Of a DNA stretch of 47,462 nt, positions 1,072 through 46,405 are shown one piece after another; within the stretch, counting starts at the first letter, position 1, and every line of letters starts with the position of its first letter. The stretch spans positions 1 through 47,462 of IMG/VR virus record IMGVR_UViG_3300050821_008598; one strand, 5' to 3'. The DNA is from a virus. The notes beneath the pieces were generated by a model, which ran no database searches, was not told where the DNA came from, and was given only the letters and a program-made list of their open reading frames with translations. The position numbers and the translations under genes were made by a program.

Positions 1072-1480
1072 CAGTTGCGTCACGATTCAAGAAGCGCACG
1101 TTTGCTCGGCCGCAGGATTGATCTCTAGCGGCGGAATCTGCTCGCACTTAATCAGCTCAGAAACTGAGACTCTCTCATTCCATGAACTCCTTGATTTTTT
1201 GGATGCACAACCCGTCGCTCGGAATTGCATTCCCGTAGGATATTGGGGCGTCGTGAATAAGCAGACTGTCTGGGTCCAGACATTCCCCGTCTGTGCTGAC
1301 GATCAGACTCAAGGGACACTCACCGTTCTTCCTACGCGCGGAGCGGCGATGATCATGTCGTCAGACGACTGGGGAACTTTAAAGACAGAACTCGAAACGG
1401 CTTGCAGATACCTGGGGAATCAATGTAGCCTAGCTACACAAGCGATAATTGCGCGGATGAATAGCGCGGGGAACAAATGA
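1004..1480 (+). CDS. predicted lipoprotein, Cys-rich
   Basis: From the GTG at 1004 the product has 158 residues. It begins with a signal peptide: Lys5 and Lys7, a Leu-rich core, then a lipobox-like LISSC with Cys25 as the lipidated residue. At least six further cysteines follow, suggesting disulfides in the periplasm. A longer start at TTG 977 is possible, but AAAGGGGA lies about 10 bases before 1004. The gene overlaps the previous one by 68 bases and is coupled to the next by ATGA at 1477. Possible roles are superinfection exclusion, an outer spanin or a surface receptor mask. No family is recognised. Confidence 0.75.
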   Translation: MNFFKLKPLLSLLCLSLLASLISSCVTIQEAHVCSAAGLISSGGICSHLISSETETLSFHELLDFLDAQPVARNCIPVGYWGVVNKQTVWVQTFPVCADDQTQGTLTVLPTRGAAMIMSSDDWGTLKTELETACRYLGNQCSLATQAIIARMNSAGNK

Positions 1481-3711
1481 AAAAACTTCTAGCCATTTTT
1501 GCGCTTTTAACTCTCACGGCTCACGCTGACACGATCAATAGCTCTGTCGTCATCAAAGACCAATCTGGAAATAAAGTCACCACGACAGCCGTAGGAGGCA
1601 AACAAGGTCTCGACGTTAATGTGATCACTCCTGGCGGATCGTCCACGGTTAATCAAGGTACGCCAAATACAGCCTCAAACGCTTGGCCAATGTATCTCTG
1701 CAACGCTGGCGGCGTGCATTGCATGGCGATCAATTCAGACGGATCGATCAATGTCGATGCCACGATCACGGGATCGGTCACGATCGCCAATCCATCCACA
1801 AATTATTCACTTGAGACGGGGGGAAATCTCGCTTCGATTTTAGCGAAGTTGAATTCTTCAGTCGCAGTGACGGGCGTTTTTTTCCAATCCACTCAGTCGG
1901 TCTCAGCCGCAGCTCTTCCTCTTCCGACCAATGCCGCCCAGGAAACTGGCGGGCATCTAGCGTCGATCGACACAAAATTGACGAATCCTCTTCCTGTTTC
2001 TGGAACGATCACGACAAGTCCCAATGTTAATTTGCACGATGGAGCAGGAAATGCGATTACTTCTCAGGTATCTGGTTCACAGCGGCCTCTTGATACTGGG
2101 ATTAATGTGGCTGGCGTCCAAGTCGATCCTCGCAGTATTCGTGCTCTTACCTCTTCCGATGTAGTGAGCGTTCAAGGCGGCAATTCTACAGCGGTGAAAG
2201 TCGACGGCTCAGCGGTGACTCAACCTGTGAGCGCTGCGAGCCTTCCATTGCCATCTAACGCTGCTCAAGAAACGGGCGGACACCTAGCTTCGATTGATAC
2301 GAAGCTGACTTCACCGATCGCGATTCAAGGCGGTAACTCTACAGCCGTGAAGGTCGACGGATCTGGCGTCACGCAGCCCGTGAGCGGTTCAGTCACAGCG
2401 CTTGGACCAGCCGACGTTACTCCAGCGACTCAGGCGATCACGGTCGTCGACAGCGGGACGACTTCAACGACGGTAGCCAATGGTCAAGTTTTGATCACTG
2501 GCACTTGTACAGCCGGAGCTTGCGCGACTTTTAGTTTGTCGTCTGTCGAAGCTGCTGAGCTATTGAGCAGTGGATCTTGGACAGGAACTCTTGCGACAGA
2601 AGTCAGTCAAGACTGTGCGACCTATACCTCTCGCGGAGTGAAACAATCGGGCGTTTCGTACATCGCTAATTCTTTTACTGGAAATTTCCAAGGTGGGATG
2701 AATACGGGAGCAATTGGCTGTGTCCGTGTTCGTGCTACCGCCGCGATGACGGGTACCGCAACGATCAAAGCGACCTCTTCTTTGAATCCAGCGTCAGTGA
2801 TCGTTTCGAATCCACAGATGCTTCGAGATGGGACTACTCAGTCAGTGACGAATACGATCAAGGCTGCGAGCACAGCAGCGGTCGCCACAGATACAGCCAT
2901 CGTAGTAGCTGTATCGCCAAATAATACTCCTGTTCTTCCATCCAATGCCGCGCAAGAGACGGGCGGTCATCTGGCTTCGATTGATACGAAATTGACTTCT
3001 CCGATCTCCATTCAAGGGGGGAACTCAACTGCTGTTAAAACGGATGGCTCTGCGGTGACTCAGCCGATCAGTGCCGCGAGTCTTCCACTCCCCGCTCTTG
3101 CTGCTACTTCTACAAAGCAAAGCGATGGATCTCAAAAATCTCAAGTCGTAGATGGAGCTAACGCCACAGTAGGGCCAGTGACAACGATTTCTGGGACTAA
3201 CTATTTGCCTGTGATTCAGGCTTCGAGTGGAACGCCGGGAAGCGCTACTCCAGCTAGGTCAATGGTCATTGCTGGTTCTGACGGTACGAACACGCGTACT
3301 TTGTCTACAAACACAAATGGGGATTTGAATGCTAGCTTAGGCAATACGGCTGGTAAAACCGTTGTGATGAAAGCTGGGAATATTCAGACGACAGCTACCA
3401 CTTCGAATCAAGTCATTCTCACTTACACAGTCACAGCAGCAAAGACTTTTTATCTTCAGTACTTTGATTGCACTGCTGAAACAAATGCAGCGGCGGCGAC
3501 TGCTTCTCAATTCGGAACGTGCTCTCTTTCGATCAATGGAACAATCGTGTACACGAGTTATCAAAAGGGTTCCGGAGAATCAAATACTGCGACAGTCTAT
3601 CTGGCTGAGCCTATTCCTGTGGCGGCTGGTCAAATCATTCTCTGGGAAACGACTCCTGCTGCGGCTACCGCTTATAACTGGTACACAAATTTTGGAGGAT
3701 ATGAAAAGTGA
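1477..3711 (+). CDS. large secreted repeat-containing fibre/adhesin-like protein
   Basis: This 744-residue protein begins with a clear Sec signal peptide (Lys2-Lys3, hydrophobic core, AHA cleavage site near residue 17). The rest is Ser/Thr/Gly/Ala-rich and beta-prone, as in phage fibres. A module containing NAAQETGGHLASIDTKLT recurs near residues 150, 260 and 490. It alternates with GGNSTAVK.DGS near 235, 285 and 515. The C-terminal 130 residues have a jelly-roll-like composition. A signal peptide on a fibre-like phage protein is unusual, because tails assemble in the cytoplasm. It starts by ATGA overlap with the lipoprotein gene. Host-surface display is an inference. Confidence 0.8.
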   Translation: MKKLLAIFALLTLTAHADTINSSVVIKDQSGNKVTTTAVGGKQGLDVNVITPGGSSTVNQGTPNTASNAWPMYLCNAGGVHCMAINSDGSINVDATITGSVTIANPSTNYSLETGGNLASILAKLNSSVAVTGVFFQSTQSVSAAALPLPTNAAQETGGHLASIDTKLTNPLPVSGTITTSPNVNLHDGAGNAITSQVSGSQRPLDTGINVAGVQVDPRSIRALTSSDVVSVQGGNSTAVKVDGSAVTQPVSAASLPLPSNAAQETGGHLASIDTKLTSPIAIQGGNSTAVKVDGSGVTQPVSGSVTALGPADVTPATQAITVVDSGTTSTTVANGQVLITGTCTAGACATFSLSSVEAAELLSSGSWTGTLATEVSQDCATYTSRGVKQSGVSYIANSFTGNFQGGMNTGAIGCVRVRATAAMTGTATIKATSSLNPASVIVSNPQMLRDGTTQSVTNTIKAASTAAVATDTAIVVAVSPNNTPVLPSNAAQETGGHLASIDTKLTSPISIQGGNSTAVKTDGSAVTQPISAASLPLPALAATSTKQSDGSQKSQVVDGANATVGPVTTISGTNYLPVIQASSGTPGSATPARSMVIAGSDGTNTRTLSTNTNGDLNASLGNTAGKTVVMKAGNIQTTATTSNQVILTYTVTAAKTFYLQYFDCTAETNAAAATASQFGTCSLSINGTIVYTSYQKGSGESNTATVYLAEPIPVAAGQIILWETTPAAATAYNWYTNFGGYEK
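1920..3010 (+). repeat. three diverged coding repeats inside the secreted fibre-like gene
   Basis: Units of about 60-65 bases at roughly 1929-1985, 2255-2320 and 2939-3005 encode the NAAQETGGHLASIDTKLT module. Flanking GGNSTAVK units are repeated as well. Codon-level divergence shows that the duplications are old. A weaker relative, LETGGNLASILAKL, lies near 1811. Confidence 0.8.
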
Positions 3712-9065: not shown

Positions 9066-9167
9066 TGGCTCTAGGGGTAGGATTCGGACCTACACACCCA
9101 TCGTTAAAAAGTCTCGACAGGCACACGGTAGACAACCGCGCGCGTTTGCCAATTTCGCCACCCTAGA
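9066..9167 (-). tRNA. tRNA-like gene with long variable arm and GUC anticodon loop
   Basis: The minus strand folds into a full cloverleaf. The acceptor is TCTAGGG/CCCTAGA, then discriminator G and an encoded CCA (9066-9068). The D arm is GCG/CGC with GG in the loop. The anticodon stem is CGCGG/CCGTG with loop TTGTCTA. The variable arm has a 7-bp stem (9121-9115 with 9103-9097). The T stem is GTAGG/CCTAC with loop TCCGAAT. A long variable arm belongs to Leu/Ser/Tyr tRNAs, and the D-arm sequence is Leu-like, but the loop reads GUC (Asp). Position 37 is U and position 55 is C, both unusual. It may be degenerate, or a specialised tRNA or decoy. Confidence 0.7.
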
Positions 9168-11545: not shown

Positions 11546-13636
11546 TTGTTTAGCAAATACCGGGAGCTGGGTCTAGCCTTAATTCCTTTAAAGCCGGAAT
11601 CTAAAGCGCCTTTGCTTGACGCCTGGACACAGTTCTGCGACCGGCTCCCCACCGAAGAAGAGTGCGAAAAGTGGGAGAAATACTATCCGGATCGCTATGG
11701 ACAAGTTTGCGGACCCGCGTCCGGTGTCATGTGGGTTGATATCGACTCGGACGATCCCGCAATCCTCAACGCCGTCAAACCGTCGCCTGTGAGAAAGCGG
11801 GGACGCAAAGGAGAATCTCGTGCTTTTAAATTTGATCCGGACGTCCTGTCCTGCAAAGTGGCTGGCATCATCGATATTCTGGCTTACGGTCATCAAACTG
11901 TTTTACCTCCCACGCTTCACCCTGAGACAGAAAAGCCTTACGTTTGGATCACGCCAGATACGCTTGAGAATTTTTCCATCACCGACCTCCCGACGTTCAC
12001 GCAAGACGATCTCAATGACATCCGACGAATTCTGGAGCCAGCTAAGTTTGAATCTGGCGAAACCTCGGGCGTGTCGCTTCAGGGTCCATTTTTCAACGAC
12101 GACACAAAGCGGTTATCCCCTCATGGTTCGCATGACCGGCTCAAGAGAATCGTGTCTGCGATCATTGCGCGCGGTGCTTCGCCTGACGAAGCCGTTCGAG
12201 AACTTCTAAGATACGATGAAGAGAATCATAAACCGACTGGATACTTTGCCGATGGAACGCGCTCGGATTGTTTTGCCGATCCAGTCTCAAACGCCCTCTT
12301 TTTCTATGCATCAAACGTCAGAACTTTCAATCGACGGCAAGTCAAAACTGGTCAGATCCCAGCGATACCACTTGTCTCAGGATCTGAGCTGATCGATGTC
12401 TCCCAGCTCATGCCTCAAACCGGAAAAGCTTTCGAGTCAAAAAAATGGCCTGAGCCAACTGGGACTTTAAAAGATCTGCGTGATCTGATTTTGCAGTCGT
12501 CCAAACGTCACCAGCCAGGTCTAGCGCTCGGCGGTGCTATCGCCATCGGATCAGTCGTGATCGCGAACCGCTTCAAATTTGGAAATACATGGCCAAATCT
12601 TTTCATCATCAACGTGGCGAATACGGGAGCCGGGAAAAGTTTTCCTTACACAGCGGCTAAAAAACTTTTGAATGCAGAGAACGAGTTGGATCTTCTTGGA
12701 GCTGGCGGCTATCGCTCTAGCACGGCGATATTGAAAGACCTCGTCGGACGTCGTGAGCGCTTGGATTTAATCGATGAGTGCTCGTCACTTTTTAAAACGA
12801 TGCGCGACGGCGGGATTTTTCAAAGCGACATGATGGACATCCTCAATCAACTTTGGTCAGACTCCAGCTCCCTCTTCATCGGACCTGAAGCGGCCGGACG
12901 CGAGAAGATTCAAGTTTGGCATCCATGCATCACGGCGCTTCTGTCGACGACTCCGGACGGTTTGAAAAATTCGATCTCACGCGAATTCGTGACCCAAGGG
13001 TTCTTGCCGCGTTGCCTCATTTTCAATGATGTAGGGTACGGGGAGATCACGAAAGACACTTGGGATGACGCGCTTGCTCAAAAGATTGTTCGCAAGTTTC
13101 AAGAGATGCAAGCCTACGGTGCGGTCGACAAGCGCAATCTTGCCGGACCTCGACCTGGACCAGAAGAGATCGAGTCCACGCTGGAGGCTCGGACGCGGCT
13201 TGACTCTTACGCGCTGGAGTGTGCGGAAAAGTTGGCTGAACCGAGTCGTGACGAAGTCGAGCGACATTTCTTTTCACGAGCAGCTCAGCAAGCGGCGAAA
13301 CTCGCTCTCATTCATGGCGCGTTGAGCCAGCTTCGTATAGGCCTCTCAGACGTCGAATGGGCAATCGATGTGCTGGAAGCCCTATCCTACAACGCTTCGG
13401 CCCTCCTGCCTCAAATGGGAGCGGAGAACAACCAAGAATCCAACGTCATGAGAATCCTTCAGATCATTCAGGTCGCGGGCAAGATCGCGCACGGTGCTCT
13501 CGTGGCAAAGACCCGGTTCCTCAAAACGCCGGAGCGGACAGAAATGCTGACTTCGCTTGAGGTTGAGGGACGGATTCAGTCAAGCGTTGAAATAACTGTA
13601 ACCCGACCCGCGAAAATTTACAGCTATTTGCGGTGA
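11546..13636 (+). CDS. primase-polymerase with C-terminal helicase/ATPase domain
   Basis: This 696-residue protein starts with a bifunctional primase/polymerase (Prim-Pol) domain: LALIPL..ESKAP near 10-22, Gly-rich loop, and the catalytic VDIDSDD around 64-70. A DUF3987-like P-loop domain follows with Walker A NTGAGKS about 358-364. Such fused proteins prime and unwind at phage and plasmid origins. The start is TTG 11546 with ATGGAG upstream; no ATG fits. An AT-rich iteron region follows directly. No other replicative polymerase is encoded, so this protein probably directs host enzymes. Confidence 0.85.
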   Translation: MFSKYRELGLALIPLKPESKAPLLDAWTQFCDRLPTEEECEKWEKYYPDRYGQVCGPASGVMWVDIDSDDPAILNAVKPSPVRKRGRKGESRAFKFDPDVLSCKVAGIIDILAYGHQTVLPPTLHPETEKPYVWITPDTLENFSITDLPTFTQDDLNDIRRILEPAKFESGETSGVSLQGPFFNDDTKRLSPHGSHDRLKRIVSAIIARGASPDEAVRELLRYDEENHKPTGYFADGTRSDCFADPVSNALFFYASNVRTFNRRQVKTGQIPAIPLVSGSELIDVSQLMPQTGKAFESKKWPEPTGTLKDLRDLILQSSKRHQPGLALGGAIAIGSVVIANRFKFGNTWPNLFIINVANTGAGKSFPYTAAKKLLNAENELDLLGAGGYRSSTAILKDLVGRRERLDLIDECSSLFKTMRDGGIFQSDMMDILNQLWSDSSSLFIGPEAAGREKIQVWHPCITALLSTTPDGLKNSISREFVTQGFLPRCLIFNDVGYGEITKDTWDDALAQKIVRKFQEMQAYGAVDKRNLAGPRPGPEEIESTLEARTRLDSYALECAEKLAEPSRDEVERHFFSRAAQQAAKLALIHGALSQLRIGLSDVEWAIDVLEALSYNASALLPQMGAENNQESNVMRILQIIQVAGKIAHGALVAKTRFLKTPERTEMLTSLEVEGRIQSSVEITVTRPAKIYSYLR

Positions 13637-13690
13637 TCCAACTTTGGACCCAAGGTGGTGCAAAACGCACCTGCAAAAACACCCTAATAC

Positions 13691-13718
13691 TTGACTATTT
13701 ATCTAATACATGTAAAAA
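13691..13718 (+). promoter_or_regulatory. possible sigma-70-like promoter
   Basis: TTGACT at 13691-13696 is followed after 16 bases by TAAAAA. The -35 box is good and the -10 box weak. It points rightwards into the repeat-rich origin region and the structured leader of the Topo VI-A-like gene. Confidence 0.3.
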
Positions 13719-13723
13719 CTGAA

Positions 13724-13934
13724 TACAGTCATTTAGTAACCATTTAAAACGGTTAATGCCTATAATATATAATAATAATATATATATATATAATATATTA
13801 TAATAACTGAATAAATGAATGACTGTACGAGGGGGTATAAAAAAAGACTCTATATAAAGAGACTCATCGCGTTAAGAACGCCCGGACACCGCCTGAGAGA
13901 CACCCCCTACAGTTATTCAGTTATTACAGTAATT
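13724..13934. other. probable replication origin: iterons, AT block and dyad symmetry
   Basis: The ten-base motif (T)ACAGTNATT or TTCAGTTATT occurs at 13724-13733 (+), 13802-13811 (-), 13818-13827 (-), 13908-13917 (+), 13916-13925 (+) and 13925-13934 (+). Between the first copies lies a block of almost pure A/T with alternating TA (about 13761-13806). AGGGGGT (13830-13836) pairs with ACCCCCT (13902-13908), placing the two iteron groups on the arms of a large dyad. CGCGTTAAG (13868-13876) also pairs with CTTAACGCG (13959-13967). No gene is present. Position beside prim-pol supports an origin. Confidence 0.65.
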
Positions 13935-13990
13935 CATTGCGTCATTGTTTTTACTGGCCTTAACGCGTATGCTTTGGTATGGTATTATTA

Positions 13991-14118
13991 GACTTGGCGA
14001 TCCTCATCCATTTTTATTTTCGCGTTCTCTCCGCCAGGTCTGAACGCGAGCCAAGTCCGAAAGGTAAATCTCCGTTCAACTGGAACCTTTCGGACTTGGA
14101 TTTTAAAGGAGACCTGGC
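13991..14118 (+). promoter_or_regulatory. structured leader with mutually exclusive hairpins, switch-like
   Basis: Fold I has GACTTGGC (13991-13998) with GCCAAGTC (14050-14057), enclosing TCGCGTTC (14020-14027) with GAACGCGA (14042-14049). Fold II has CCAAGTCCGAAAGGT (14051-14065) with ACCTTTCGGACTTGG (14085-14099), enclosed by GCCAGGTCT (14033-14041) with AGACCTGGC (14110-14118). The folds share bases and cannot coexist. In fold II the outer stem overlaps the 3' end of AAAGGAG, the ribosome-binding site of the gene at 14121. This resembles a riboswitch, attenuator or protein-controlled leader. All pairings are exact. Confidence 0.55.
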
Positions 14119-14120
14119 AA

Positions 14121-15005
14121 ATGAAAATTGAGTACGTCAAAAAAACTTTTGGAACAGCTTCACTCAAATTGATTGAGATCGCTAATCAGATCATTGTCGA
14201 GTATCAAGCTCAAGGATTTGATCTCACTCTGCGTCAGCTTTACTATCAGTTTGTCTCTCGTGACATCATCGCCAATAAGCAAAGCGAATATAAAAGGCTC
14301 GGTTCGATCATCAACGACGCACGGCTTGCCGGGATGATCGATTGGGATGCTATCGTAGACCGAACACGAGAACTTAGAAAAAACGCTCACTGGGATTCCC
14401 CAGGCGAGATTGTAGCCGCGTGTGCAAAACAGTACCAAGTCGATAAGTGGGAAGGGCAAGAGTACCGGGTGGAAGTCTGGATTGAAAAAGATGCACTCGT
14501 CGGAGTGATCGAAAAGATTTGCCAGAAATTAGACGTCCCTTATTTCTCTTGCCGTGGCTATACAAGCCAAAGTGAAATGCACGGAGCTGCAAAACGTCTG
14601 GAAGCTTGGAGCGACGATTACGATCAAAAAATTGTCATCATTCATCTAGGGGATCACGATCCTAGCGGTAAAGACATGAGTCGCGATATCCAAGATCGGA
14701 TGGACCTTTTCACAAATCAAAATCGAATTATCGAAGTTGAGCGGATCGCTTTGAATATGGATCAGGTTAGAAAGTACAATCCTCCGCCTAATCCTGCCAA
14801 ACTCACGGACAGTCGATGCGCTGGATACATCAAAGAATTTGGAAATAAAAGCTGGGAACTCGATGCACTTGATCCAAAAGTCATTGCAAATTTGATCACA
14901 AAAACAGTGAACAAGTATTTAGATATGGATCTTTTTTCGAAAAAACTTACACTCGAAGAAAAGCATAAAGCTTCTCTATTAACAGCGGCAAAAAAACTCA
15001 GTTGA
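14121..15005 (+). CDS. Spo11/Topo VI-A-like protein with Toprim domain
   Basis: In this 294-residue protein the N-terminal part has TLRQLYYQFV (36-45). This resembles the winged-helix tyrosine motif of Topo VI A and Spo11, with Tyr41 or Tyr42 as candidate nucleophile. A Toprim domain follows: VWIEKDAL with Glu122 and HLGDHDPSG with Asp178/Asp180, the Mg-binding residues. It is shorter than Topo VI A (about 370 residues) and no B subunit is encoded, as in stand-alone Mini-A proteins. It might nick or break DNA at the adjacent origin. The ATG follows AAAGGAG inside a structured leader. Confidence 0.75.
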   Translation: MKIEYVKKTFGTASLKLIEIANQIIVEYQAQGFDLTLRQLYYQFVSRDIIANKQSEYKRLGSIINDARLAGMIDWDAIVDRTRELRKNAHWDSPGEIVAACAKQYQVDKWEGQEYRVEVWIEKDALVGVIEKICQKLDVPYFSCRGYTSQSEMHGAAKRLEAWSDDYDQKIVIIHLGDHDPSGKDMSRDIQDRMDLFTNQNRIIEVERIALNMDQVRKYNPPPNPAKLTDSRCAGYIKEFGNKSWELDALDPKVIANLITKTVNKYLDMDLFSKKLTLEEKHKASLLTAAKKLS

Positions 15006-22964: not shown

Positions 22965-23704
22965 TTTTTCACGGGGATTGTTTAGAAAAACTTCGCGAAG
23001 TTGAAGATAGATCAGTGGACATGGTCCTAGCCGACCTTCCCTATGGAACTACCGCATGTAAGTGGGACACACGCATCCCGTTTGAACCGCTCTGGGAACA
23101 ATTGCATCGCGTATGTAAACCCAATGCGGCGATGTGCATGTTTGGGAGTGAGCCGTTTTCGAGTCTGATGCGGATGAGTAACTTGAAGCGGTTTAAATAT
23201 GATTGGGTTTGGGATAAAAAGAAGGTGTCAGGATGGTTGAACGCCAAAAAAAGGCCATTAGTTCAACACGAAATCATCAGCGTCTTTTACTCCGAACAAC
23301 CAACTTATTTCCCCCAAATGCATTCAAACAAATTGAAGCGCGATTTTCGAGGGGTTTTGAAACCGTTTGATATTACAACAACTGTAGGAAGCCAGCGGAG
23401 GTATATCTCAGAAGTTGGACCGGACAGAAGTTACCCGCGTTCAATTGTTGAGCAGACGGCGGTTGTGGGAAACTCAAAAGAAAAAGTAGCTCACGGCACC
23501 CAAAAACCCGTCGCACTGCTTGAATATCTCATCAAGACTTACACGAATGAAGGCGACACGGTGCTTGACCCGACAATGGGAAGCGGTTCAACGGGTGTCG
23601 CCTGTAATAACTTAAAGCGTCAATTTATCGGTATAGAAAAAGAACTCAACTATTTTGAAATCGCTCAAAAGCGGATAGGATCAATTCAATGGCAAAGAAA
23701 ATAA
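22961..23704 (+). CDS. N4/N6 DNA methyltransferase, beta class
   Basis: This 247-residue SAM-dependent methyltransferase has catalytic ADLPYG (24-29; motif IV) before the SAM-binding VLDPTMGSGSTG (201-212; motif I), the beta arrangement. It could methylate adenine or cytosine N4 in phage DNA, protecting it from restriction, or mark DNA for packaging. It overlaps both terL and the portal gene. No partner restriction gene is encoded. Confidence 0.9.
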   Translation: MIFHGDCLEKLREVEDRSVDMVLADLPYGTTACKWDTRIPFEPLWEQLHRVCKPNAAMCMFGSEPFSSLMRMSNLKRFKYDWVWDKKKVSGWLNAKKRPLVQHEIISVFYSEQPTYFPQMHSNKLKRDFRGVLKPFDITTTVGSQRRYISEVGPDRSYPRSIVEQTAVVGNSKEKVAHGTQKPVALLEYLIKTYTNEGDTVLDPTMGSGSTGVACNNLKRQFIGIEKELNYFEIAQKRIGSIQWQRK

Positions 23705-26022
23705 TCACGGGCGGTCGCAGCATCGTGCGCGAATCCAGAACTGACGGCTGGTCCAATCTCGTCACTCTCCTCGGTACAAACGCCGACAAGCGCACTCAGT
23801 CTCAGCTCACCTGGGATTACCATCCGCCTGAGTTCTACGAGCAGATGTACGCGGGCGGCGGAATTCCCGCGCGCATCGTGGATCTCGTGCCAGAAGAAGC
23901 TTTGCGCGAGTGGGTTGATTGGACAGGGATTGAGAAAAATGAATCCGAAGAGATCAATGATCGCTGTGAAGAACTGGATGCTCGCGGTGCGTTCCTCAAG
24001 ACTTGGAAGTGGGCTCGCGCGTATGGCGGAGCTTGCCTCTACATTGTTACTGACACTGATGACCCCTCCTCTCCTCTACGTGTGGGTGAGCGGGTTATTG
24101 GTCTACGAGATCTTAGTCGGTGGGATCTGCGAATCCTCACTACAGATGTCGAGTTCGATTTTGGCTCTCCTAATTGGGGCCATCCTCGTATTTACTATTT
24201 GAACGTCCAAATGGGCTCAGCTTACAAAGGCTACCCGATCCACTGGTCACGCATGATCCGATTCGATGGCCAGCTTGTGCCTCGCCGGACCTTTATCCGA
24301 AACAACTACTGGCACGATTCGATCTTGAATCGGCTGCACAATACGATCCGGAACTACGAGACCGCGAACGATTCCGTCGCTTCGATGCTCATGGATTTCA
24401 ACGTCGACGTCTTCAAGCTCAAGAACCTGGCGAACCTGATCGCATCTGGCAAAGAACAGATTGTCAGAAACCGCATCGAGATGGTTAACTATGTAAAGTC
24501 AGTCATCAACGCGATTATTATCGACTCTGATCAGGAGGAGTATGAAAATAAATCGAGGTCAGTTGAAGGGGTTGCTGAGCTGCTTTCTCATCAAGCTAAT
24601 CGTCTGGTTGCAGAGACCGATATTCCACATACGAAGCTTCTTGGGGAGAGTCCTGATGGCTCTAACGCTACGGGAAATTCGACTTCGCAGCAGTGGTACA
24701 ACTTCGTCTCGGCCGAACAAAAAAACTACGCGCTCCCCAAACTCAGACGCCTGATCTCTGCTATCCAAGGCGGTAAAAAGATTGTGCCGAAATTCAGATC
24801 GCTCCGCATTCTGGATGACATGGAAAAGGCAGATCTGCGGCTCAAGACAGCGCAGACCGATGACATTTACATGGAAAAGAACGTGGTCGATCCGACTGAG
24901 ATCGCGACTTCGCGATTCGGAGGCGACGAGTATTCCATTGACACGACGTTGGACTGGGAAGGGCGAGCGAGTGGCGAGCTTGTACCAGGACAGCAGGATC
25001 TTCCTGAAGGCGAGGGCGTTGAAGGGGAGGGCTCGCTGGGTGGGCCAGAGGAGTCTTTTCACACAACCGGCAACCCCGCGTCCCAGGAGGGTCATTCGCC
25101 TGTGAGCGTGAAGCCGTCTGAACCTGAAACTGAGAACGATGTTCCTCCGCGAGTCAAAGGCGGACGTGACATCACAGGTCGACCCGGCGGAGCACCGAAT
25201 CCAAAGAAAGACGCTGAGCCTGTCGAGACCAAAAAGCAGCCTAAAGAAGGCACCGGCCTCAAAGAGCTGTTCACGACTCCTCACGACTCTGGGCTTCAAT
25301 ACGAGCCAAAGCATCAAGAGATTGTGATGAAAGATCCACAGCCGAAAGATTCGTCATTCATCTCTCAAACGATGAGCGAACCGTTTCGAGATCCGCGAAC
25401 TGATCCGCAAATGAAAGGCCCTGGCATTCCAAATCGGGCACGCACTTACTTGCCGACTCGCGGCAACGGCGTGACGGCTCCATCGGGCTTTGATTTTGAG
25501 AAAGATGCCGGAGTCAAAGGCGTGGCGCGCGAGGGCTTGGCAGTCGATAAGCCTGAAGGCACTGCGATCAAAAACAAATACGATACAGCGGACCCGCAAA
25601 AAATAGCAAAATCGGCTACTCGGCGCGCAGCAACTATCATTGTCCGTGACGGTGATCGATTCTTGATGGGAAAAACCAATGAAGACGGACGATATACGCT
25701 CCCTGGAGGCGTTGTGGAAGACGGGGAGTCCATGCATCAAGGCGGAGTTCGTGAACTCGCTGAAGAGACTGGACTCGAAGCGGGGAGGCTTAAATTCCTC
25801 GGTTCTCGTCTTGTCGAAAGCAAGCAAGGCGATCCTACGCAAGTTTCGATTTACGAACACAACCTTGCTGACGGAGCCAAGCCCACGAGCAAGAAAGATC
25901 CGGACAAAGAAGTCAGCAAATGGGAGTGGTTCAGTTCGAAAGAGCCGCTCTCGGATGAAGTGATGGGAAATCTGAAGCATCCAAATAACGTGGCTCTCCA
26001 GCATATGAAGTTGCTCAAATGA
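23689..26022 (+). CDS. portal protein (DUF1073-like) fused to a C-terminal Nudix hydrolase
   Basis: This protein has 777 residues. Residues about 20-430 form a DUF1073-type portal, the ring through which DNA enters (ALREWVDW, RWARAYGG-like and GESPDGSNATGN motifs). A Pro/Gly/Lys-rich linker (about 440-635) follows. Residues about 640-777 are a Nudix domain with a full box: GG at 673-674, REL.EE in 688-694 and Gly696. The frame is unbroken, so this is a true fusion. The Nudix part may hydrolyse nucleotide signals or NAD derivatives. Confidence 0.85.
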   Translation: MAKKIITGGRSIVRESRTDGWSNLVTLLGTNADKRTQSQLTWDYHPPEFYEQMYAGGGIPARIVDLVPEEALREWVDWTGIEKNESEEINDRCEELDARGAFLKTWKWARAYGGACLYIVTDTDDPSSPLRVGERVIGLRDLSRWDLRILTTDVEFDFGSPNWGHPRIYYLNVQMGSAYKGYPIHWSRMIRFDGQLVPRRTFIRNNYWHDSILNRLHNTIRNYETANDSVASMLMDFNVDVFKLKNLANLIASGKEQIVRNRIEMVNYVKSVINAIIIDSDQEEYENKSRSVEGVAELLSHQANRLVAETDIPHTKLLGESPDGSNATGNSTSQQWYNFVSAEQKNYALPKLRRLISAIQGGKKIVPKFRSLRILDDMEKADLRLKTAQTDDIYMEKNVVDPTEIATSRFGGDEYSIDTTLDWEGRASGELVPGQQDLPEGEGVEGEGSLGGPEESFHTTGNPASQEGHSPVSVKPSEPETENDVPPRVKGGRDITGRPGGAPNPKKDAEPVETKKQPKEGTGLKELFTTPHDSGLQYEPKHQEIVMKDPQPKDSSFISQTMSEPFRDPRTDPQMKGPGIPNRARTYLPTRGNGVTAPSGFDFEKDAGVKGVAREGLAVDKPEGTAIKNKYDTADPQKIAKSATRRAATIIVRDGDRFLMGKTNEDGRYTLPGGVVEDGESMHQGGVRELAEETGLEAGRLKFLGSRLVESKQGDPTQVSIYEHNLADGAKPTSKKDPDKEVSKWEWFSSKEPLSDEVMGNLKHPNNVALQHMKLLK

Positions 26023-43554: not shown

Positions 43555-44163
43555 ATGCCATATTCAAGACCGTCTAATTATCCAGATTTTTGCACCACTG
43601 GGACACGCGACGCGCCGACATCGGGTGAGATTTTATCAGGCTATTTGCCCAATCAAATTCCTCCCTGCGAAGAGCACAATTACCTTTTCGGGACGACAGG
43701 CGACTGGGTTCGTTGGCTGGACCAGCAAGAGCAACTCAACTCTTCTCAGCTTGCCTTTGATGCCACAGTGGGCACGGGCGGGACTTATCCGGACATCAAT
43801 TCATTGGTCGCTGCAATCACAGGCGGCGCTCAAATCAATCGAGTCCTAGTTACGACTCTTCAGACCTTGGCTGCAACGCAGCTCATCACAAGCGGGATCA
43901 CTGATCTTGAGCTTGTGTTTAAGCCGCAGGCGTTTTACTCCAAGGGCGGAGCGGTCACTCCAGGCTTGTCCATTGCGGGCCAGCGGATTACTATCCGAGG
44001 CGGGAGATGGATGAACTTTAGCGGCGGCTCTGACGTGGCCATCGCTGTGCAGTCGACGGCGAGAAATTGCCGCATTGCAGATGTGAATTTTTTCACTTGT
44101 ACGAAAGCAATCAACGATGCTGGTGTCAACACTGTCATCGAAGGCACTATCGAAGAGGTCTAA
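43555..44163 (+). CDS. tail fibre protein with right-handed beta-helix
   Basis: In this 202-residue protein the N-terminal part (1-70) is a baseplate-binding domain with EEHNYLFGTTGDWVRWLDQQEQ. Residues 75-200 carry the pattern of a parallel beta-helix: ITDLELVFKPQ, SIAGQRITIRGGRWMNF, RNCRIADVNFF. It is short for a receptor-binding protein. The next, exported protein may add to host binding. Confidence 0.8.
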   Translation: MPYSRPSNYPDFCTTGTRDAPTSGEILSGYLPNQIPPCEEHNYLFGTTGDWVRWLDQQEQLNSSQLAFDATVGTGGTYPDINSLVAAITGGAQINRVLVTTLQTLAATQLITSGITDLELVFKPQAFYSKGGAVTPGLSIAGQRITIRGGRWMNFSGGSDVAIAVQSTARNCRIADVNFFTCTKAINDAGVNTVIEGTIEEV

Positions 44164-44164
44164 A

Positions 44165-46351
44165 ATGAAATTTAACTTTATCGCTTTACTGGCTCTTATT
44201 TCGAGCACCGCATTTGCCGCGAGCACGATCCCGACCAAATTTAGGACGGATCAGCTTCAGATCGGTCAATCCGGATCAACCGCAAATAAAAGCTACATTT
44301 TTGATTTCGGACTTGGACTCTCCAATCCAAATTTGGGAGTCGATAATTCCACACACACTCTCCAGTACAATTTGAACAATTTTCAAATCGGGGACGGAAC
44401 CACTTCGCTGAAGTCATGGTTTGCGAATAACGGGATAGCTCCATTTCCAGCCATCCAATATAGCTCAACTGATCAGCAGTGGGAATTTTCCAACGATGGA
44501 ACTAATTTCAGCGGCTTTGGGTCTGGAAGTGGATCTGGATCTGGAATCAATTTTCTGGTTAACCCAGGATTTGAAACAGGCGTCACTCAAGATTGGACCA
44601 ATACTGGCGGAACGTTTGCTGCTGTCAGCGGCGGATCTAATCTTCTGATCGGAAAAAAATCTGCGCTTTTCACAGCAAGTTCAACGGGTCAGTCTTTTCA
44701 AAGCGGGATTCATACTGTTCCCAATGGCCTTCAAGGGTCTTCGTGCTCGGCGTCTATTCTCTACCTGGGAGGAGATGCGAATCTTACCCTCCATGCGACT
44801 GACGGCTCAGGGCATGACCTTGGAATTCCTGTAGTTTTGACTCCAGTGTCTTTTCCACAGTTCTCAAACCCAGTGCAATTTCCTTGCGTAGCTGGTGCGC
44901 CTGTCCAGTTTAATGTCGAATCCACGGGCACCGCTGCGGCGACTGCTTTTGATACGGCTTTCTTGGGTCAGAATACTTTGACTCAAGTGTCTCAGGCTCA
45001 ATATTTCGGAGGAATTTCAATGCAGGGTTCTCCCTGCTCTTGGGGCAACTCTGCTGTTAGCTCCTACTCTGACTTTTCAGTCACTACGGGATGCTCTTAT
45101 GCCACGAAGGGGAATGCGTTGGCTCCATCGACTCAGCTCCCAGCCATTCGATTTGCATCTATGCCAGCAGGAGAATATTTCTTTTCGGTTCGAGGGAAGA
45201 TTTACACGAACCAAGCATCTTCAAGCGCAAATTGTAACGTCAGACTTTTTGATGGGACAAATGATCTTGGGCCGAATCGAATTCGAATCACTGCGACTGG
45301 TGCTAGCAATACTTATGTAAATGGAGGGGTAGAAACAGGTCATCTTTCTCTCTCTACTGCATCCGCATCTAAAACCATTTCAATTCAGATGAATGATGCT
45401 GGAACTGGGTCCGGATGTAACATCGATACGGCTTCGGATACGCCACTTCAAGTTGACGTGTATTACTACCCGTCTCAGTCACAGACAGCTTTCACTCCAT
45501 CTAACTCTGCGATGAGTTGGTCGGGACAGATCTCTGGATGCTCTTGGAGCACTGGCGCGGGTTCTACACCTACTGATTTTCCTGCCACGACCGGATGTAC
45601 TCTGACTCAATTAACGAACAGAAATTTCGGGACAGTCACTGAACCGACCAATCTCCCGCAAATTCAGTTCACTCCAAGTCGCGTCGGAAGATACAGAGTG
45701 TGCGCCTCTTATTCTACCCAAAGCGTCACTGGCGGTGCTCAGTACTCGACGTTTTTGGCTGATGAGGGAAATGTCATTTTTGCCACATCAAACGTGATCA
45801 ATGCAGGCAGTCCTTATCCATCTTTGCCTGTGCAAAATTGTGGGATCTTGAATGTCGGTGCTATTTCTACAAAAACAATCAAGCTTCAAGGTTCGGAGAT
45901 TTCAGGCTCTATTTCCGTTCAAGATTTTAGCGCCAATGGATCAAATTCCATGCTCTGGACCATTGATGCTCTGGATACTCCGTTCCCGGCTCCGGTTGTC
46001 GTAGGTCAAGTTACTTCTCCAAGCACTGGAGTTGAAGTCATGACTAGGGCTCTTATAGCTGGTTGCTCTTCAGATCCTTGTACGATTCAAAGTCAAAGCG
46101 GAAGCTGGCTGACGGCTGTTAATTGGCTTGGAACAGGAGATCTTGCTTTGCATATTGCTCCTGGGACTTTTTCGGCCATTCCTTCTTGCTTTGGTCTGAG
46201 CGGTGACAATGGTGGGCAAACTCTTAGCTATAGTAAAGCCACTGCCACTTCTACATATATCGAGGTAACTAATTACTTTGTGAGCGGAGGAGTCTCAACT
46301 CCTCAAAATTCATCAAATGGAATTTCTTTCGCCTGCATCGGCCCAAAATAA
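44165..46351 (+). CDS. large secreted adhesin/fibre-like protein
   Basis: I choose ATG 44165, giving 728 residues; the frame is open slightly upstream. Residues 1-18 are a Sec signal peptide with an AFA cleavage site. The mature protein has repeated jelly-roll-like units with paired cysteines: a GSPCSWGNS...VTTGCS unit near 300 and an ISGCSWSTG...ATTGCT unit near 475. These look like duplicated receptor-binding domains. A signal peptide is unexpected for a tail fibre, suggesting envelope display. It directly follows the fibre gene. Confidence 0.8.
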   Translation: MKFNFIALLALISSTAFAASTIPTKFRTDQLQIGQSGSTANKSYIFDFGLGLSNPNLGVDNSTHTLQYNLNNFQIGDGTTSLKSWFANNGIAPFPAIQYSSTDQQWEFSNDGTNFSGFGSGSGSGSGINFLVNPGFETGVTQDWTNTGGTFAAVSGGSNLLIGKKSALFTASSTGQSFQSGIHTVPNGLQGSSCSASILYLGGDANLTLHATDGSGHDLGIPVVLTPVSFPQFSNPVQFPCVAGAPVQFNVESTGTAAATAFDTAFLGQNTLTQVSQAQYFGGISMQGSPCSWGNSAVSSYSDFSVTTGCSYATKGNALAPSTQLPAIRFASMPAGEYFFSVRGKIYTNQASSSANCNVRLFDGTNDLGPNRIRITATGASNTYVNGGVETGHLSLSTASASKTISIQMNDAGTGSGCNIDTASDTPLQVDVYYYPSQSQTAFTPSNSAMSWSGQISGCSWSTGAGSTPTDFPATTGCTLTQLTNRNFGTVTEPTNLPQIQFTPSRVGRYRVCASYSTQSVTGGAQYSTFLADEGNVIFATSNVINAGSPYPSLPVQNCGILNVGAISTKTIKLQGSEISGSISVQDFSANGSNSMLWTIDALDTPFPAPVVVGQVTSPSTGVEVMTRALIAGCSSDPCTIQSQSGSWLTAVNWLGTGDLALHIAPGTFSAIPSCFGLSGDNGGQTLSYSKATATSTYIEVTNYFVSGGVSTPQNSSNGISFACIGPK

Positions 46352-46405
46352 GAAAAATCATAGAGAATCGATAAGAAAAATCATAGAGAATCGATAAGGA
46401 AAATC
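46348..46405 (+). repeat. tandem 23-base repeat, 2.5 copies, before the lipoprotein gene
   Basis: A 23-base unit beginning ATAAGAAAAATCATAGAG occurs at 46348-46370 and again, identical, at 46371-46393. A partial copy, ATAAGGAAAATC, at 46394-46405 supplies the ribosome-binding site of the lipoprotein gene. The copies look like a duplicated initiation region (AAGAAAAATCATA resembles AAGGAAAATCTTATG). Confidence 0.9.

Follow-up and report, generated by a model that had tools for sequence, protein, structure and literature searches.

A structured leader overlapping the ribosome-binding site of a phage Mini-A topoisomerase-like gene, next to an origin-like region

Introduction

Phage leaders that hide the translation start site are on record for T4 genes e, soc, 49 and I-TevI (PMC3014915). 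For e and I-TevI, a late promoter within the DNA for the 5' strand of the structure gives rise to short, active transcripts (PMC3014915). T4 gene 32 represents another arrangement, as its autoregulatory pseudoknot is located outside the ribosome-binding site (RBS), 67 nt before the start codon, and nucleates protein binding (PMC3014915). Mini-A proteins are phage type IIB topoisomerase-like proteins, exemplified by that of phage NP1 (PMC7614492); homologues are found in many phages, and the cited literature says little about their role.

Here we analyze the DNA preceding a Mini-A-type gene in the viral record IMGVR_UViG_3300050821_008598, using "the window" for the entire stretch of 47,462 nucleotides. 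With moderate confidence, we favor the reading that this DNA specifies a 5' leader that occludes the RBS, is specific to the lineage, arrived together with an accessory Mini-A gene beside a candidate origin and holds down translation of that gene.

Results

A Mini-A-type gene is preceded by four perfect inverted repeats

The gene product shares about 47% identity with the homologue of Pseudomonas phage NP1, annotated as a DNA topoisomerase. In an alignment of ten homologues, invariant residues fall within RQLYYQ, WIEKDAL and GDHDPSG, which fits the catalytic-tyrosine and Toprim motifs known from Topo VI-A. The AlphaFold model has a fair pLDDT of 85, and a PDB fold search returned no match at E <= 0.001. 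Homology to NP1, a catalytic-Tyr motif and Toprim motifs together place the protein in the Mini-A family. The likeness to phage Mini-A comprises protein homology and conserved RQLYYQ, WIEK and GDHDPSG motifs, whereas the family as such does not have the structured leader described here.

Exact inverted repeats of at least 8 bp in the range 13985-14125 are limited to four (Table 1), the same four listed in a preliminary description of this DNA. When arms up to 150 nt apart are considered, the window has only one perfect 15-bp repeat, and 2000 dinucleotide-preserving shuffles produced neither a repeat of that length nor a set of four that reach 8 bp. Among 677 segments of 140 nt, the folding z-score is lowest at 14001-14140 (-7.8); the second-lowest value (-7.2) belongs to 13791-13930, within the same 484-bp intergenic region. 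The initial judgment that the array is very unlikely by chance is hence borne out. All 40 base pairs of the four repeats are of the Watson-Crick type, and folding of the minus strand is nearly as strong as that of the plus strand (-59.6 vs -61.4), so the sequence is silent as to whether RNA or DNA is the functional form, a point that speaks for the DNA-level role discussed below.

Table 1 Features of the origin-like region, the leader and the flanking genes
Feature	Position	Strand	Evidence
Prim-Pol / DUF3987 primase gene	11546-13636	+	Domain/PHROG match; directly upstream of origin-like region
Iteron-like direct and inverted repeats around A/T run	13711-13936		Repeat search; fold z -7.2 at 13791-13930
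Iteron-like repeat TGTAAAAACTGAATA / TATTCAGTTATTACA	13711-13725 / 13914-13928		
Iteron-like repeat TACAGTCATT / AATGACTGTA	13724-13733 / 13818-13827		
46-bp pure A/T run	13761-13806		Longest in window; next 13 bp
Long inverted repeat in origin-like region	13796-13832 with 13903-13931		
Promoter-like TTAACG-17-TATTAT	13960-13988	+	Predicted; counterpart in L133
8-bp repeat, GACTTGGC / GCCAAGTC	13991-13998 with 14050-14057	+	Exact inverted-repeat search
8-bp hairpin, TCGCGTTC / GAACGCGA, 14-nt loop	14020-14027 with 14042-14049	+	Exact inverted-repeat search
9-bp outer stem, GCCAGGTCT / AGACCTGGC	14033-14041 with 14110-14118	+	Repeat search, folding
Perfect 15-bp hairpin, CCAAGTCCGAAAGGT / ACCTTTCGGACTTGG, 19-nt loop	14051-14065 with 14085-14099	+	0/2000 shuffles
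Shine-Dalgarno AGGAG	14107-14111	+	Sequence
Start codon ATG	14121-14123	+	Sequence
Topo VI-A-like (Mini-A type) gene, 294 aa	14121-15005	+	PHROG 6247 (phrog_6247) DNA topoisomerase match

The predicted structure covers the translation start

The preliminary description combined the four repeats into two folds, fold 1 consisting of the 8-bp repeat 13991-13998/14050-14057 plus the 8-bp hairpin, and fold 2 of the 15-bp hairpin enclosed by the outer stem. Fold 2 does overlap the RBS as described there, with the 3' arm of the outer stem covering the last two AGGAG bases and the spacer before the ATG. For a transcript beginning at 13996, the start-codon bases are predicted to be unpaired with a probability of at most 0.01, compared with about 0.27 in the 3' half of the Shine-Dalgarno sequence. 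Pairing of the start region with an upstream arm is thus predicted as in T4 gene e-type RBS-sequestering leaders, the feature in common with e, soc, 49 and I-TevI being a Shine-Dalgarno sequence and/or start codon held in a helix with an upstream arm. For five other genes in the window, the start region scores as more strongly occluded than for the topoisomerase gene; occlusion by itself is therefore not diagnostic.

An origin-like region shared with relatives lies directly upstream

Judged by sequence, positions 13637-13960 resemble a replication origin and constitute a candidate for one. The adjoining primase is common to four other records, with identities of 77% (L133), 61% (L138 and L140, nearly identical to each other in sequence) and 56% (L139); one of these records is 50.8 kb long and the remainder are fragments. 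The longest A/T run lies just past the primase in L133 (34 bp), L140 (43 bp) and L139 (31 bp), the next longest being 11-13 bp, and the L138 record stops at the A/T run. Iteron-like repeats also follow the primase, with two copies of TTACAGCCGCAATGCGT in L133 and three of TACAATCG in L139. As in iteron-type origins, an A/T-rich run is thus combined with repeated sites, at a conserved position by a replication gene. The topoisomerase gene has no match in the L133, L138, L139 and L140 records, and the repeats at 14020-14118 are absent from the origin-like regions of L133, L139 and L140. As relatives with the origin-like region have neither, leader and topoisomerase gene look like an accessory cassette.

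These data bear on the main rival explanation, that the repeats act as DNA, as binding sites or cruciform-forming repeats for a replication initiator, the Mini-A protein or a phage resolvase, and in this way extend the neighboring origin. The region abuts the origin-like element common to relatives, copies of GACTTGG are located at 13991 and 14093, and AGACTTGGCGA is also present within the origin-like region of L133. However, the leader lies outside the shared part, and since three relatives do without the 14020-14118 repeats, these are not needed for origin function there; hence, of the earlier suggestion that the leader is part of the origin, only the proximity holds up. Moreover, a role at the DNA level does not predict that the repeats end exactly over the RBS. 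We consider it unlikely, though a serious competitor of the RBS-occluding leader.

Another record, L043 (IMGVR_UViG_3300014839_000014), has structural genes collinear with those of the window (portal 62%, another ORF 82%), but neither the primase nor the topoisomerase gene has a match in it, a pattern that suggests modular exchange of the replication region. The portal protein encoded in the window (23689-26022) carries a C-terminal NUDIX domain (Pfam PF00293, residues 644-753). Elsewhere in the window, a 102-nt tRNA gene with a long variable arm is located on the minus strand (9066-9167); ARAGORN calls it Gly(acc), whereas its body looks Leu/Ser-like and the folded anticodon loop differs from that call. 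A perfect 23-bp tandem duplication (46348-46393) lies at the end of ORF 44117-46351, and a 128-nt repeat (2251-2378 and 2938-3065, 77% identical) is found within ORF 1477-3711, whose 744-aa product has no Pfam or PHROG match.

A promoter-like site positions the putative transcript start

Transcription usually starts 6-8 bp past the -10 box, and the promoter-like site at 13960-13988 would most likely yield a transcript start at about 13995-13997. Sites of such quality with 17-bp spacing number five on the plus strand of the window. L133 has CTGACG-17-TATTAT at the corresponding position; there, a different small ORF begins within about 8 bp, without such a leader. With a start at about 13995-13996, most of the arm 13991-13998 would be missing from the transcript.

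Several modes of control can be set aside. An intrinsic terminator or attenuator is rejected, as no terminator-like site with a U-run was found at the leader and the stem is followed only by ATTTTAAA. ATG and GTG codons are lacking between 13989 and 14120, and the leader is therefore not opened by an ATG- or GTG-initiated leader peptide. Leader-peptide attenuation via the ORFs 13969-14043 and 13979-14131 was rejected because the start codon of either ORF precedes the predicted transcript start; both ORFs lack an obvious Shine-Dalgarno sequence, and no phage homologue of the longer one was found. Plasmid repZ-like leader-peptide control was dropped on the same grounds.

The predicted start also bears on timing of the T4 gene e type, in which long transcripts would be folded and silent and a leader-internal promoter would supply short, translated ones, as T4 genes e and I-TevI do (PMC3014915). 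Consistent with this, loss of the outer stem is predicted only if transcription begins at about 14042 or further downstream, which would free much of the start region. In contrast to e and I-TevI, the structure is larger and no such late promoter was recognized here: a search of 13990-14110 on the plus strand for sigma-70-like promoters found none, although a promoter of a phage-specific late type may be present. We regard this timing as improbable.

The leader is confined to one lineage

Leaders were scanned for about 90 homologues (40-63% identical) taken from viral contigs and genomes, as well as for five named phages. None of these about 95 topoisomerase genes is preceded by a comparable leader (z of -5.1 in the window, followed by -3.2 and -3.1), most z-scores being near 0, and in several named phages the topoisomerase gene overlaps the preceding gene by 4 bp. 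Conservation of the leader across the topoisomerase family is thus rejected, and protein autoregulation via the leader is not a family trait. An exact search of viral contigs with the 15-bp arm gave 29 matches, none with the whole element; DNA searches with the region returned no match in plasmids and only short matches in phages, the best of them to the A/T-rich part. A hairpin in L139 (CCGAAAG..CTTTCGG), located before the first gene past the origin-like region, resembles part of the leader; its homology was rejected as not significant, because 27 of 500 shuffles reach its local alignment score. Rfam yielded no family match for the leader, even at a relaxed threshold. The leader is known from one sequence only, and the riboswitch considered initially finds no support.

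A functionless origin of the element, as a small hairpin insertion or duplication remnant arriving with the accessory gene, would fit its absence from all relatives and homologues examined and the GACTTGG direct repeat flanking 13998-14092. It has a small chance of being correct, given that four nested perfect repeats end over the RBS and that the DNA searches found no trace of the element elsewhere.

One fold is predicted to dominate

The folds were originally described as mutually exclusive, which is mostly wrong. One helix of fold 1, 13991-13998/14050-14057, does conflict with the 15-bp stem, with which it has seven bases in common (14051-14057), and it is the sole pairing to do so, whereas the other (14020-14027/14042-14049) shares no base with fold 2. 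In addition, fold 1 (-22.5 kcal/mol) is 21 kcal/mol weaker than fold 2 (-43.5 kcal/mol); the two inner hairpins together amount to -36.9 kcal/mol. The loop of the 8-bp hairpin includes the 5' arm of the outer stem, giving the two stems the geometry of an H-type pseudoknot, and from this pairing geometry its formation appears possible, with the 15-bp hairpin placed in the long third loop. The locus is similar to the T4 gene 32 operator in that a DNA-metabolism protein is preceded by a leader for which an H-type pseudoknot can be drawn (a prediction here), yet the second stem itself covers the RBS in the present case.

There is accordingly little sign of two-state switching, that is, of a riboswitch or attenuator with fold 1 as ON and fold 2 as OFF state, selected by ligand, protein or ribosome binding. 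GACTTGG is contained in both 13991-13998 and 14093-14099, which are rivals for 14051-14057, and both copies would be present in read-through transcripts from upstream. However, besides the weakness of fold 1 and its single competing helix, the 5' arm of that helix lies at or before the predicted transcript start, since it needs 13991-13995, and no Rfam match, U-run terminator-like site or homologous leader was found. The switch is therefore unsupported and, in our view, very improbable.

Discussion

The structure upstream of the Mini-A gene is real, statistically strong, lineage-specific and of a familiar kind, whereas the claim of a switch fails. In the RBS-occluding reading that we favor, the repeats would form a stable structured leader at about 14020-14118, 5' of the gene. 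If it folds in vivo as predicted, one structure would dominate, an outer 9-bp stem around the 15-bp hairpin, perhaps with the 8-bp hairpin joined to it in a pseudoknot. The start codon and the end of the Shine-Dalgarno sequence would be tied up, resulting in low default translation, and the enzyme is probably kept scarce by a leader folding over its own translation start. Release might come from an outside event; we can only guess at a double-strand RNase cutting the long stem, a bound protein or a transcript without the 5' arms. Cleavage of the long stem would part the two strands of the outer stem. Leader and gene would together form an accessory cassette just downstream of the conserved origin-like region and promoter. 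Several findings weigh against this reading: the leader occurs in one sequence only, about 95 homologues lack it, five other genes in the window score as more occluded at their start, and the two strands fold nearly equally well.

It is highly improbable that the Mini-A protein binds the perfect hairpin RNA as a mimic of a DNA duplex or crossover and thereby shuts off its own translation; if true, the topoisomerase-like enzyme would be autoregulated by means of an RNA decoy located at its start site, beside the origin on which it acts.

If the leader does throttle Mini-A, its place next to an origin-like region would suggest that the enzyme has a dose-sensitive role in phage DNA replication. 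Comparison with relatives also helps to place a candidate origin of this group of phages, and the origin-like region, with its comparative support, may be a more useful result than the leader.
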